A DNA stretch of 64,000 nt from Proteus vulgaris. GTDB lineage: Bacteria > Pseudomonadota > Gammaproteobacteria > Enterobacterales > Enterobacteriaceae. Below, in pieces: positions 22,947-61,560 of this stretch. Location: assembly GCF_033708015.1 (NCBI RefSeq), contig NZ_CP137920.1, positions 248,001 through 312,000 of the forward strand, in the 5' to 3' direction. Numbering within the stretch: position 1 is the first letter of the stretch; every line of letters begins with the position of its first letter. The notes under the pieces were generated by a model, which saw only the letters and a program-made list of their open reading frames with translations, made no database searches and was not told the origin of the DNA. The position numbers and the translations under genes are program-made.

Positions 22947-23022
<76 letters not shown>

Positions 23023-23058
23023 ATCTTTCTTAGACAATTATTAGTCGTGTTATGCGAT

Positions 23059-23134
<76 letters not shown>

Positions 23135-23169
23135 AATCTTTTACTAGTCATTGTCAAAACTTACCAAAT

Positions 23170-23245
<76 letters not shown>

Positions 23246-40239: not shown

Positions 40240-40340
40240 TCGCTTAGTCTATTTTATTCTCTATACTCCCTTGAGTTTTATTGACCGCGGGGGTATAGTG
40301 ACGCGTCAATTTTTTCAGTCACAACTTAAACAAGTTCCTT

Positions 40341-40801
<461 letters not shown>

Positions 40802-58018: not shown

Positions 58019-58366
58019 ATGCGAATTATTGTTTATGGTAGTTTACGGCAAAACCAAGGTAACCATCACTGGATGACTTATGCACAGCTTTTGGGTGAAC
58101 ATAAATTAGTGGGATATAAACTTTATGATTTAGGTTTTTACCCTGCGGTTATTGAAGGTGAGGGTGAAATAGAGTGCGAAGTCTATCGGATCACGCCTTC
58201 TATCTTGACAGAGCTTGATGAATTGAAAAAGAACGATCAAGATTACAAGCGCCAACTGATTTCAACACCTTATGGTAGTGCTTGGATCTATCTTTATCAA
58301 AAACCCGTTGATGGCTTGAGAGAAATCAAAAGCGGAGATTGGTTAAAACGTCATGAGGAAGAGTAA
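58019..58366 (+). CDS. ytfP: Gamma-glutamylcyclotransferase-like protein YtfP
   Basis: The 115-residue protein has the AIG2-like fold with the substrate-binding YGSLR motif near the start (IIVYGSLRQNQGNH) and the acidic residue in EVYRI. The family cyclises gamma-glutamyl amines or peptides, but the substrate of YtfP is not known. It lies 5 nt downstream of tamB, with a strong terminator after it, and closes the tamA-tamB-ytfP operon. Confidence 0.93.
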   Translation: MRIIVYGSLRQNQGNHHWMTYAQLLGEHKLVGYKLYDLGFYPAVIEGEGEIECEVYRITPSILTELDELKKNDQDYKRQLISTPYGSAWIYLYQKPVDGLREIKSGDWLKRHEEE

Positions 58367-58409
58367 TAGGTAAATTTAGCTATTACGATAGATAACTTAA
58401 TAATAACAA

Positions 58410-58440
58410 AAAAACTCGATATAAATATCGAGTTTTTTTT
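58410..58440 (+). terminator. Intrinsic terminator after ytfP
   Basis: ACTCGATAT (58414-58422) and ATATCGAGT (58425-58433) form a 9-bp stem with a 2-nt gap and are followed by eight T. It marks the left border of the AT-rich insertion; 58441-58624 beyond it holds nothing recognisable. Confidence 0.85.
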
Positions 58441-58624
58441 ATAAAAATATTATTTTCTATAAATTTAATTATGGGTTTAATTTTTAACTGCCATTTAATT
58501 ATTTATAATAAAATTAGTCTATTTTTAATAAATTTAAATATTTATATTTTTTAAAATTTAAATAAGTAATTATTAATTTAATTTTTATCTGTATCGATAT
58601 GAAAATTATTAATGGTAGACCTGA

Positions 58625-58654
58625 TTGACAGCAAAATAAATTTAATGTTAAAAC
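58625..58654 (+). promoter_or_regulatory. Candidate promoter of the small-peptide gene
   Basis: A perfect -35 TTGACA (58625-58630) is followed after 17-18 nt by TTAAAA/TAAAAC, a weak -10, about 65 nt before the ATG of the peptide gene. A weak -10 with a strong -35 may indicate an activator. Confidence 0.4.
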
Positions 58655-58716
58655 AGCTTTGCTTAAGAAGGAAAGAGATAACTATCTTATTATTAAATAG
58701 TGAAATAAGGTAATTT

Positions 58717-58980
58717 ATGGATAAATTAAATGACATTACTCAACTTTATAATAATCCTCCCAAAGACGTAAAACATAATAGAGTAAATCATGGTTTTACT
58801 GACATGATATTACAAACAAAAAACGTAGCAACAGATACATTAGATAAACTCGCTTATCTTGCAGGTATTAAAAATGCACCTGCCGATGATAAGTATTTAA
58901 AATTAAATACAACTAATTTAGATGCATTGCTAAAAAGTGCAAAGTCACTGGGTTATGATATCGAAGTTGTCAGTATTTAA
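58717..58980 (+). CDS. Small protein of 87 residues, possible precursor peptide of a novel cluster
   Basis: The gene encodes a soluble peptide rich in Asn, Lys, Asp and Leu, with no Cys and no Trp, no signal peptide and no double-Gly site. The N-terminal part (MDKLNDITQLYNNPPKDVKH) is polar. The middle (about 28-52) and the C-terminal end (TNLDALLKSAKSLGYDIEVV) look helical. The end faintly recalls the closing helix-strand of small XRE/HTH_37-type regulators, so a regulator is the main alternative. It has its own likely promoter, a fair ribosome binding site (AAGG, 7 nt before ATG), and an intrinsic terminator right after the stop, so it should be made in excess over the two genes behind it. 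No homologue is recognised. Confidence 0.7.
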   Translation: MDKLNDITQLYNNPPKDVKHNRVNHGFTDMILQTKNVATDTLDKLAYLAGIKNAPADDKYLKLNTTNLDALLKSAKSLGYDIEVVSI

Positions 58981-58984
58981 TTCC

Positions 58985-59010
58985 AAAGCAGCCATAAGGC
59001 TGCTTTTTTA
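58985..59010 (+). terminator. Intrinsic terminator/attenuator between the peptide gene and the cupin gene
   Basis: AAAGCAGCC (58985-58993) and GGCTGCTTT (58998-59006) form a perfect 9-bp stem with an ATAA loop and end in a T-run, 4 nt after the peptide stop codon and 19 nt before the next gene. The next gene has a strong ribosome binding site but no obvious promoter of its own, so it is probably expressed by read-through. Confidence 0.85.
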
Positions 59011-59028
59011 AATGTATAGGAGGCAGTC

Positions 59029-60321
59029 GTGAATAAGGATATTAATGAACTTAATAAAAATATTAATATTGTAGGATTACATTGGATTACTCGCTGGCGA
59101 GTGAATAACGGAAAACAACAGTCTTATGTTATTCCCTTCGCAACAACTTATCCTATTAATATTGTTTACCATGGTAAAAGTGAATTTAAATATGGGCAGT
59201 ACGGTATTCATCTTGGTCAACAAGATACATTAACTTTTTTAGGTGATGAAAAACAAAAGATACTGGCTAAATTTATTGATTGTCGTAAAAATTCACCAAC
59301 ATTTAAATCAGAATTAAGTTTTGAGATAACACCATCATCCGCAAGAACACTAATTATTCCCCCAGGGGTCGCCCATACTTTTTCTCATCTAGAGAATGTT
59401 TTTACCTTAAATAACTATTCTCTTTTTTTACCTACAATCGAGCAATTAGCAAGTGAAACGTTTAATTGGTCACCTAATAATGATGTGATAAATCTTCCTG
59501 AGAATATCGATATTAATGAGATTGAAGGCTATGAGCCAATGACAGAAGAAGCCTCTGCACTGGTCTATCATCGGATCGCAGAGATACAACAGCAATGGTT
59601 AAGTCAACATCGATTTCTACACTCTGAAACCCGTAAAATCCGTTTAGATAATGGCGATGAGATTAATTTAAGATTTCGAGAGAAAATAGCAGATACTCAA
59701 AAACAACAATTACCTACATCGACTATTTTAGGTGTTGAATTTCATGAAATGGCGACCTTACATACTGGTAAAGAGAGTGGTATTGTCCCATTAACGCGAC
59801 AATCCCCTATGTATCTAGTTGAACATGGTCATGAGGATTATGATTTTGACTCTTATGGATTACATTTAGGGCAAGAAGATCATTTAACTTTTCTAGGTGA
59901 TATATCTCATGAAATCACCGTTAAGCTGGTGGATATGCGTGAAAATTCCCCCACGCTATTTTATGAAGATGAAATTATTTTTAATCCTGCACCCAATATT
60001 GAGTTAGTGATCCCTTGTGGTGTTGCCCATGCCTTATTTAATATGGCGAATATCATTACTGTTAATCGACCAGTTATCTATTTAGACAAAGAAAAAGAAT
60101 ATATTCCAGGCTATGATGTCATTGATTGGAAAATTGCTAATAAAAATTATCAATCTTATCACGTTAATAAAATAGCAGCAGACTTAAGCTATTATCAATT
60201 CCTCGTTTCTAAACAACAGGAGTTAATGAAACACAAGCCCACCCATCATACTCCAAAATCGATTGTTATTTATGATGAAAATAACCAGCCTATTAAAGTA
60301 TTAATTAAAGAAAAGGTATAA
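59029..60321 (+). CDS. Tandem-duplicated RmlC-like cupin protein
   Basis: The 430-residue protein consists of two homologous halves, about 1-215 and 230-430. YGIHLGQQDTLTFLGD (58-73) recurs as YGLHLGQEDHLTFLGD (276-291); RKNSPTF recurs as RENSPTL; IIPPGVAHTF recurs as VIPCGVAHAL. The SPT and IP-GVAH elements and the preceding His are those of dTDP-4-dehydrorhamnose 3,5-epimerase (RmlC)-like cupins, and both halves keep His61/His116 and His279/His334. Each half ends with a helical segment plus a beta tail. RmlC itself is a single domain of about 180 residues and works beside rmlA, B and D, none of which is here, so a sugar role is doubtful. The start is GTG at 59029 with AGGAGG five nt upstream. 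Confidence 0.85.
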   Translation: MNKDINELNKNINIVGLHWITRWRVNNGKQQSYVIPFATTYPINIVYHGKSEFKYGQYGIHLGQQDTLTFLGDEKQKILAKFIDCRKNSPTFKSELSFEITPSSARTLIIPPGVAHTFSHLENVFTLNNYSLFLPTIEQLASETFNWSPNNDVINLPENIDINEIEGYEPMTEEASALVYHRIAEIQQQWLSQHRFLHSETRKIRLDNGDEINLRFREKIADTQKQQLPTSTILGVEFHEMATLHTGKESGIVPLTRQSPMYLVEHGHEDYDFDSYGLHLGQEDHLTFLGDISHEITVKLVDMRENSPTLFYEDEIIFNPAPNIELVIPCGVAHALFNMANIITVNRPVIYLDKEKEYIPGYDVIDWKIANKNYQSYHVNKIAADLSYYQFLVSKQQELMKHKPTHHTPKSIVIYDENNQPIKVLIKEKV

Positions 60322-60329
60322 CTTCGATT

Positions 60330-61520
60330 ATGCGTATTGTCTTTTTCTATATGCTTTTTTTGGTGTTAAGTGCTGATGGCTTAATGGTTTTTTTAACACC
60401 TGTTATTGTTTATCAATTAACAACAAGTATTGAGTATGCGGGATTGACATACGCCTTATGGTGGTTACCACGCATTTTTTTAATACCGCTTATTGGTCAA
60501 TATATTGATACTCTAGGTGTGCGCCCTGTTTCTATTCTTTCTGATAGTAGTAAAATTATTGGCTGTTTATTTTTATTAACTTCAGATTTTTCCTCTGATT
60601 TAGTGATTGCAATTAGTTTTGGATTAGTGGGAAGTTTAATTTCTATTGGTAATTCACAGACGCTGATTTCATATGAAAAAATTATTGCATTGATGAGTCA
60701 CCATAAAGAACATCATATTAATATAATGTCACGAATAGATTTTTTGGGCATGATCACCGGTCCATTCATTGGGATGTTATTTATTGAGCATGGATACCGT
60801 TATTTACTTATTATTCCCTGTTTATTCTATTTTATTAACGCAGTATTCTTTTTGTTCTTTTATCTAGAGCCAAAAGAGAGTCACGCTGCCACTCAATTAC
60901 ATAGCCAAGCAGAGACGTTACGAGTCACTAAAAGGATGGTAATGATTTTTACATCTCCTATTTTGATTTTTTCTATTTTAATTGCTATTGGGAATAATAT
61001 GTTTGATGGATTAATTGAATCGAGTGGTATGGCATTAATTGATCAATCGATGAACTTACCGATTAAATACTATGGCTTTATTGATATTTCTGCGGGGATC
61101 TGTGGTGTAATAGGTACTTATTTATATGGCTATTTAACTCATTATTTAAATCGAAAATTATTACTGTCTCTGTCAATTTTCATCATCACAATAAGTTCTT
61201 CTTTACTGATTATTTTTCAACAAGATATCACTATTTTTATTATCTTTTATGCCCTATCCATTATTGGTAAGGTTTTTTCAGGGAATATCTTGCGAATGTT
61301 CAGAATAGAAATCATTCCTGTGACGCAATTAGCCAGTACTTCCTCACTGATTATTTTATTTAATCAACTGATCTTACCCATTGTGGGTGGGCTTTTGTTT
61401 TTCTCTACTGGTGAAGTCGCCTTTATTTATACACTGATGGCGATTGCGATAGGGATAACATTGATAAGTGGTGTATTGCTTGTGACGTTTCATCATAAAA
61501 AAAGCCCTTCAATAAAATGA
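60330..61520 (+). CDS. Major facilitator superfamily transporter of the cupin cluster
   Basis: The 396-residue integral membrane protein has about ten to twelve hydrophobic segments. Between helices 2 and 3 it carries the MFS motif-A-like sequence GQYIDTLGVRP, and the central cytosolic loop is polar (LEPKESHAATQLHSQAETLRVTKR). Overall it resembles MFS exporters of the EntS/MFS_3 type, but no substrate can be read from the sequence. It starts 8 nt after the cupin gene, so the two are surely co-transcribed. Export of a product made with the cupin protein is the natural inference; self-protection by efflux is another. Confidence 0.85.
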   Translation: MRIVFFYMLFLVLSADGLMVFLTPVIVYQLTTSIEYAGLTYALWWLPRIFLIPLIGQYIDTLGVRPVSILSDSSKIIGCLFLLTSDFSSDLVIAISFGLVGSLISIGNSQTLISYEKIIALMSHHKEHHINIMSRIDFLGMITGPFIGMLFIEHGYRYLLIIPCLFYFINAVFFLFFYLEPKESHAATQLHSQAETLRVTKRMVMIFTSPILIFSILIAIGNNMFDGLIESSGMALIDQSMNLPIKYYGFIDISAGICGVIGTYLYGYLTHYLNRKLLLSLSIFIITISSSLLIIFQQDITIFIIFYALSIIGKVFSGNILRMFRIEIIPVTQLASTSSLIILFNQLILPIVGGLLFFSTGEVAFIYTLMAIAIGITLISGVLLVTFHHKKSPSIK

Positions 61521-61560
61521 AGAGCTTATTTATCAGTAAGTTATTCTGAGTGGGTCAGAA

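Follow-up and report, generated by a model that had tools for sequence, protein, structure and literature searches.

A recurring, movable unit of a small protein, a double RmlC-like cupin and an MFS transporter in Proteus and six other genera

What might a small protein, a double cupin and an MFS transporter do together between ytfP and ppa of Proteus vulgaris, in the interval that holds the toxin-antitoxin pair chpSB in E. coli? The preliminary description of this locus, correct about chpSB as confirmed for E. coli K-12, proposed a three-gene system in which the cupin modifies the peptide or makes a small molecule exported by the transporter. We analyzed the locus in a window of 64,000 nucleotides (contig NZ_CP137920.1) and compared it with related loci.

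Layout of the interval and its three proteins

The ORFs and domain matches confirm the layout described between ytfP and ppa: a small ORF (87 aa, 58717–58980), a terminator-like hairpin, a double-cupin gene with a GTG start (430 aa, 59029–60321) and, 8 nt after its stop, an MFS gene (396 aa, 60330–61520), all three genes on the + strand. The terminator scan listed two other terminator-like hairpins, both on the - strand: one behind ytfP (58408–58439), with a terminal T run on the + strand too, and one overlapping the last codons of the MFS gene (61502–61527), on the ppa strand. The GC fraction is 0.22–0.37 in the 500-base windows from 58250 to 61249, versus 0.37–0.44 on either side. The low GC reported for the interval is thus real, but AT-richness alone does not prove the insertion claimed with it, since a low GC behind ytfP can also be seen in relatives whose site is empty (0.23–0.39 in four of them).

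Comparison between loci gave a promoter-like element, TTGACA-N14-ATGTTAA (58625–58651, + strand), 65 nt before the start codon of the small-protein gene. The pattern is present in 13 of 17 loci for 0.005 expected from mononucleotide shuffles, an expectation that is too favourable because the pattern was drawn from the very upstream alignments that were counted. The promoter proposed for the peptide gene rests on this comparison; the promoter scan, whose sites were fewer than in shuffles (12 vs 22.7), did not list it. The hairpin of the spacer between the small-protein and cupin genes (58985–59006, + strand) has a 9-bp stem and a 4-nt loop, and folds with its spacer at -14.9 kcal/mol. It was not listed by the terminator scan, probably because the stem runs into the T run. 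A spacer hairpin was found in all 15 loci submitted to mononucleotide shuffles (z from -3.1 to -8.8; the spacers of L007, L012 and L026 were left out), with stem sequences that vary among genera.

Profile searches of each protein, recommended in the preliminary description, gave PF00908 for the cupin, MFS_1 for the transporter and no HTH domain for the small protein. PF00908 matches the cupin in two stretches (E 4e-13, 49.8 bits, above the gathering score of 27). The two halves, at about residues 14–175 and 228–392, each carry invariant H(x)4D and PxGxxH motifs and align to each other over 152 columns (hhalign probability 100, E 7e-57). H61, D66, H116, H279, D284 and H334 do not vary in any of the 119 cupins aligned from the matches listed (the input was the best 120 of the 190 past the E-value, three of these 120 being dropped as too short). 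In cupins the two motifs, with their typical spacing, carry the metal ligands; this cupin may be metal-dependent, with putative 2-His-1-carboxylate ligands coming from both motifs. In a first Foldseek search the best-placed structures were those of plant globulins, oxalate decarboxylase and quercetinase, with poor superposition (TM about 0.2); in a second look the top was occupied by RmlC relatives and ketoisomerases, mostly over residues 221–388, the first half being less covered. PHROGs gave a short RmlC match (phrog_8784, 33.8 bits).

The third protein matches MFS_1 (E 1e-20, 73.9 bits, cut-off 33.4) and carries GPxxG at residue 144 and, at residue 56, the MFS loop 2-3 motif GxxxDxxGxR, present in 14 of the 15 MFS sequences checked. 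No related solved structure was found at E 0.1, and the PHROGs family that it matches, phrog_2034 (50.9 bits), has no known function. Relatives of the small protein bear the RefSeq label “XRE family transcriptional regulator”. We put this identity aside, no HTH family appearing among the domain matches of 33 members nor among those of 14 members of the small-protein family.

Spread and linkage of the three genes

All three genes are present at 12 of the 12 small-protein loci found in the genome contig collection, distributed in seven genera (Proteus, Pantoea, Serratia, Erwinia, Chimaeribacter, Dickeya and Providencia). Genes are damaged in three of these loci; intact three-gene versions occur in Proteus, Providencia, Dickeya, Serratia, Pantoea and Chimaeribacter, and the flanks differ outside Proteus. 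Whichever of the three genes is the query, the matches fall in an identical set of 9 out of 20 Proteus genomes (a G048 match, 39% over 55 residues, was dropped from this count as an RmlC-like domain) and in an identical set of 4 out of 72,556 plasmid records. Six of the 20 Proteus genomes lack the unit, ppa lying 127–361 bases behind ytfP, and in five a sulfatase gene is found behind ytfP instead. Purifying selection (dN/dS) acts on all three genes, each genome being counted once (several loci represent one genome twice, e.g. L003/L018 and L004/L017); for the small gene dS is computable in 9 of 13 pairs, and dN/dS in these is 0.03–0.25. The small protein, the cupin and the MFS transporter are a recurring, movable unit, with the co-occurrence across genera and the variable flanks that the preliminary description named as support for a unit. 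Among the close relatives searched, the cupin and MFS genes are not regularly found without the peptide gene.

In broader genome sets the small protein was found in 2 of 394 Enterobacterales genomes (the window's own and G400), and the cupin in a single genome, the window's own, among 398 drawn from the phylum and again among 369 drawn from the class, as well as in 1 of 398 genomes in the family of G444. The cupin had no match by blastn in 5,426 E. coli genomes, a search that a distant copy could escape since the copies of other genera are about 64–66% identical in DNA to that of the window.

Double cupins of about 40% identity are also present in Actinomycetota and Bacteroidota. At the largest distance read, locus L052 of what is probably a Pseudomonadaceae genome, a relative of the small protein (130 aa) is followed by a double cupin 32% identical to ours, and no relative of the window's MFS was found within the 16 kb read at this one locus. 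The longest contig has a length identical to that of a small-protein cluster for 17 of the 42 close cupin clusters, versus 0 or 1 in 20 shifted controls (two cupin clusters without a length value were dropped). The three-gene set thus holds among close relatives, but only the small protein and the cupin stay together at L052; because of this pair, their tie looks older than the association with the MFS.

A tentative role and its rivals

The explanation we place first, tentatively and short of calling it probable, is a mobile biosynthesis-and-export unit. The hairpin after the small gene would let part of the transcription pass, so that the small protein would be in excess over the cupin. The small protein would be the substrate or the carrying scaffold of the double cupin, itself a metal-dependent RmlC relative that would no longer act on dTDP sugars, and the MFS protein would export the released product. 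The three-gene linkage, the spacer hairpin, the promoter-like pattern (chosen from the alignment in which it was counted), the dN/dS values, the cluster pairing, L052 and the invariant His and Asp residues support this reading. Modelled alone from an alignment of 33 sequences, the small protein has a mean pLDDT of 66; this low confidence is compatible with a substrate peptide, and may reflect the shallow alignment alone.

Several observations count against it. The unit contains no protease gene. The C-terminal half of the small protein is the more conserved (27 of 45 positions invariant versus 6 of 42 in the N-terminal half), the reverse of a typical leader followed by a variable core. MFS exporters usually carry small molecules, which argues against the export of a 45-residue peptide. 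The absence of an MFS relative at L052 and the P. penneri locus, with a broken MFS frame beside intact small-protein and cupin frames, also weigh against biosynthesis and export. Lastly, the first-half alignment with E. coli RmlC alone does not place H61 opposite the RmlC histidine.

Almost as likely, and a real possibility, is an obligate two-protein enzyme: the small protein would fold and serve the cupin as subunit or activator, and the pair would convert a small molecule that the MFS exports or imports. The 87-aa protein seems to be a short version within a family that also has members of 111–140 aa, the short forms matching a long form in profile comparison (hhalign probability 95). These long relatives give the impression of ordinary helical proteins, which argues against a substrate peptide; the 87-aa protein could be a folded partner rather than a precursor peptide. 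The conserved C-terminal half, I51, K52, A75 and G79, invariant in 14 diverse members chosen, and the L052 pair without this MFS point in the same direction. The hairpin between the genes suggests in contrast unequal amounts of the two proteins, and the fold of the short form is predicted at low confidence. A bolder extension of biosynthesis and export is conceivable, though we would not call it likely: a new class of ribosomal product, in which a dedicated small protein with an invariant IK motif would be modified by a single self-duplicated metal cupin, perhaps in several bacterial phyla, the enterobacterial versions having gained a dedicated exporter and become a mobile three-gene cassette.

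A cassette for anti-phage defence or inter-bacterial competition, a mobile island with a product directed against competitors or phages, is compatible with biosynthesis and export but unlikely. Its presence is patchy, copies are found on plasmids, and others adjoin phage terminase, portal and integrase pieces (Serratia), transposase genes on their flanks (Erwinia MAG) or cas3 (Dickeya). However, none of the three proteins matches a PADLOC family at E 0.1, so that a known anti-phage system was put aside; a tblastn search of 50,697 phage records at E 1e-10 gave no match for the cupin, and neither it nor the small protein has a relative in the viral contigs.

The RefSeq name of the cupin, “dTDP-4-dehydrorhamnose 3,5-epimerase family protein”, would make it a sugar-nucleotide epimerase of a polysaccharide pathway, which we consider very improbable. 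The RmlC equivalog model (NCBIfam TIGR01221) gives 35.8 bits for a cut-off of 155.75. No homologue of rfbA, B, C or D was found in the window, as first reported for the rml genes, or in 14 related loci (E. coli queries, tblastn, E 0.01, at which RfbC does not pick up the cupin itself). In modest alignments with E. coli RfbC (hhalign probabilities 29–75), the Lys of QDKLV is aligned to T67 in the first half and to H285 in the second, and RGLH to a gap and to YGLH respectively; this Lys and the Arg of RGLH are active-site residues of RmlC. A toxin-antitoxin pair in the chpSB position, with the small protein as antitoxin and the cupin as toxin, is the least credible: the small gene does precede the larger one in a shared interval and the unit is mobile, but the hairpin separates the genes, no toxin family appears among the Pfam, NCBIfam and PADLOC matches, and G018 has an intact cupin frame next to a small gene shortened to 80 aa and altered at its C-terminus, a state that such a pair would hardly tolerate.

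Significance and comparison with known systems

The preliminary description knew of no system with a peptide, a double cupin and an MFS, and none was found in the open-access literature (titles and abstract starts; subscription papers are mostly outside this scope). Two families for which no described function was found are tied together across a large sequence distance, which suggests that the RefSeq names “XRE regulator” and “epimerase family protein” hide an undescribed system. The unit may yield an exported product of which we found no description. The three genes are small and transferable to a laboratory strain, which makes it possible to test directly what the cupin does to its partner or together with it.

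Microcin C is made by an enterobacterial RiPP gene cluster. Such clusters resemble the unit by a small ORF, a tailoring enzyme and an exporter; the unit differs from them by its C-terminal conservation, with no leader/core layout seen and no protease. Cupin-4/NHLP proteusin clusters also use a cupin as modifying enzyme (PMC9426513). Here the cupin is of another family, and the small protein belongs to no known precursor family. The C-terminal EELIAAAREAGYDV segment of one distant member faintly resembles Nif11-type leader peptides (PF07862), but the short forms have no core behind this segment; this match, the sole one in 14 members, is below the cut-off (13.3 bits vs 23.8, E 0.1), and a Nif11 precursor was put aside.

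Bacilysin synthesis involves the bicupin BacB and the MFS exporter BacE. The unit is alike in this pairing, whereas the bacilysin set has other enzymes and no small protein. RmlC (PF00908) and the sugar 3,4-ketoisomerases QdtA and FdtD share with our cupin the fold and the DxRxxS and IPxGxAH segments, and the histidine of RGLH in RmlC is aligned to H279 of the second half. In contrast, the RmlC Lys is not opposite a Lys here, no sugar genes lie nearby, and the protein of the unit combines two cupins per chain, H(x)4D in both halves and a small-protein partner.

The three-gene locus and its genomic sites

In this Proteus genome, the small-protein ORF (87 aa; 58717-58980) lies between ytfP and ppa. 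It is followed by the tandem cupin (430 aa; 59029-60321), in which Pfam finds PF00908 in two stretches, and by the MFS gene (60330-61520), which matches MFS_1 of Pfam. The GC content between ytfP and ppa is 22-37% in windows spanning 58250-61249 versus 37-44% around. The Pfam search of the small protein gave nothing, and there was no significant match among the Pfam, NCBIfam, PHROGs and PADLOC families. Three tRNA genes in tandem (22947-23242) and an RpsF leader (40319-40404), both ordinary, are also encoded in the window.

The genome_contigs collection (84,980 species) was scanned with patterns of the small protein, which reach close relatives only. This yielded 12 loci. In all 12 the cupin and MFS genes follow in unchanged order, although the copies of P. 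faecis, P. penneri and an Erwinia MAG are damaged. All five Proteus loci occupy the ytfP-ppa interval, while the seven others have different flanks; the three genes thus co-occur across genera with variable flanks, an outcome that the preliminary description had named as support for a unit. The neighbors are dusA and a qor-like gene in Providencia, cas3 in Dickeya, FecCD and an amino acid permease in a Pantoea, and transposase genes on both sides in an Erwinia MAG. In Serratia nevei (L021) it is bounded by pieces of phage terminase and portal genes and by part of an integrase gene; cargo genes often occupy a position of this kind in P2-like prophages. Two plasmids also carry the unit, one of Chimaeribacter and one of Pantoea piersonii.

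Used as lone queries, the cupin, the MFS (limit E 1e-15) and the small protein matched the identical 9 of 20 Proteus genomes. Each of the three genes likewise matched the identical 4 of 72,556 plasmid records, one of these searches being made with a Pseudomonas cupin at a stricter limit. Two of these four (PLSDB NZ_OL790811.1 and NZ_OL790812.1) are 4.08-Mb Proteus mirabilis records filed as plasmids and evidently chromosomes; one of them contains the ytfP-ppa region (L014).

In the 20 Proteus genomes the stretch behind ytfP (58367-61560 in the window; L031-L050) holds the unit or its remains (9 genomes), has ppa close by, at 127-361 bases from ytfP (6), or contains a sulfatase gene running in the opposite direction, with ppa beyond the stretch read (5). 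The sulfatase was identified by Pfam in one case, the other four being 96-98% identical to that one. E. coli K-12 does have chpSB between ytfP and ppa, as stated in the preliminary description. Given the recurrent three-gene loci, their differing flanks, the varied contents behind ytfP and chpSB in E. coli K-12, the ytfP-ppa interval is a variable site holding a mobile unit.

Integrity, selection and transcription signals

Among 18 loci, every genome being entered once, the three frames are intact in 14. The MFS is broken in P. penneri (L018) and the cupin in the Erwinia MAG (L022); the small gene and the MFS are damaged in genome G018 (L007); in P. faecis (L026) the small gene is shortened, only 109 aa of the cupin are left and the MFS is shorter. 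In comparisons of 13 pairs, dN/dS ranges from 0.03 to 0.25 for the small gene (dS computable for 9 pairs), from 0.04 to 0.16 for the cupin (8 pairs) and from 0.12 to 0.19 for the MFS (8 pairs); several of the dS values, being near or above 1, are rough. The MFS of another copy (L002, genome G019) is far more diverged from that of the window (72% identical, dS 1.02) than its cupin (96%, dS 0.27), which suggests that this MFS was replaced through recombination.

A promoter-like pattern, T(T/C)GACA-N12-16-ATGNTAA, precedes the unit in 13/17 loci (all except L017, L020, L027 and L028) versus 0.005 expected from shuffles, an expectation that is too favorable because the pattern was written after seeing the alignments. 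A hairpin separates the small-protein and cupin genes in all 15 spacers tested (z -3.1 to -8.8 versus mononucleotide shuffles); its stem sequence differs from genus to genus. It also appears in folds, made without shuffles, of the spacers of L053 and of the distant locus L052. A strongly expressed small gene with transcription reduced behind it is a common layout of precursor peptides. It would also fit a scaffold or a subunit needed in excess.

Age of the small protein-cupin pairing

Named relatives of the small protein occur in Photorhabdus, Pectobacterium, Winslowiella, Burkholderia and Pseudomonas. In 14 diverse members, chosen by us, I51, K52, A75 and G79 are invariant. Four proteins of 111-140 aa, found at E 0.02-0.9, share its LY, LAGIK and AGYDV segments, and the short-form (87-aa type) profile matches one of them, P0206, with a probability of 95. 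The longest contig has the same size, 6216, for P0206 and for the double cupin P0162. More generally, 17 of 42 close cupin clusters match a small-protein cluster in the exact size of the longest contig, versus 0 or 1 in 20 shifted controls.

In the family of G444, probably Pseudomonadaceae in view of four strong OprD matches in G444, 1 of 398 genomes has a double cupin that shares 32% identity with the window's. At this locus (L052) a long-form small protein (130 aa, or 138 aa from an upstream start) directly precedes the cupin, which reduces the doubt left by the weak E-values of the long relatives. No relative of the window's MFS was found in the 16-kb stretch around L052 (E 0.001). Small protein and double cupin thus appear to be partners even in distant relatives, and the MFS, judging from this one locus, seems to have been added in the closer forms.

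Proposed function and related systems

GPxxG is present at residue 144 in 15/15 MFS copies and GxxxDxxGxR at residue 56 in 14/15; we take both to be drug-exporter motifs. The small protein is most likely the target or substrate carrier of the double cupin, which would act on it or on what it carries, and the MFS would export the resulting product. Almost as likely, the double cupin would be an enzyme of which the small protein forms a subunit; this reading accounts at least equally well for the long forms and for the conserved C-terminal half of the small protein. A toxin-antitoxin pair is unlikely because in G018 the small gene is truncated while the frame of the cupin stays intact.

No paper about the three-gene set was found in the open-access literature searched, in agreement with the preliminary description, to which no described system of this composition was known. 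The nearest idea in the literature searched comes from sponge symbionts, where a cupin-4 enzyme is associated with NHLP precursors (PMC9426513); the cupin of the unit belongs to a different family. A small ORF with an enzyme and an exporter is a known kind of arrangement, of which the unit is a variant, and one that could found its own class if its chemistry is confirmed.
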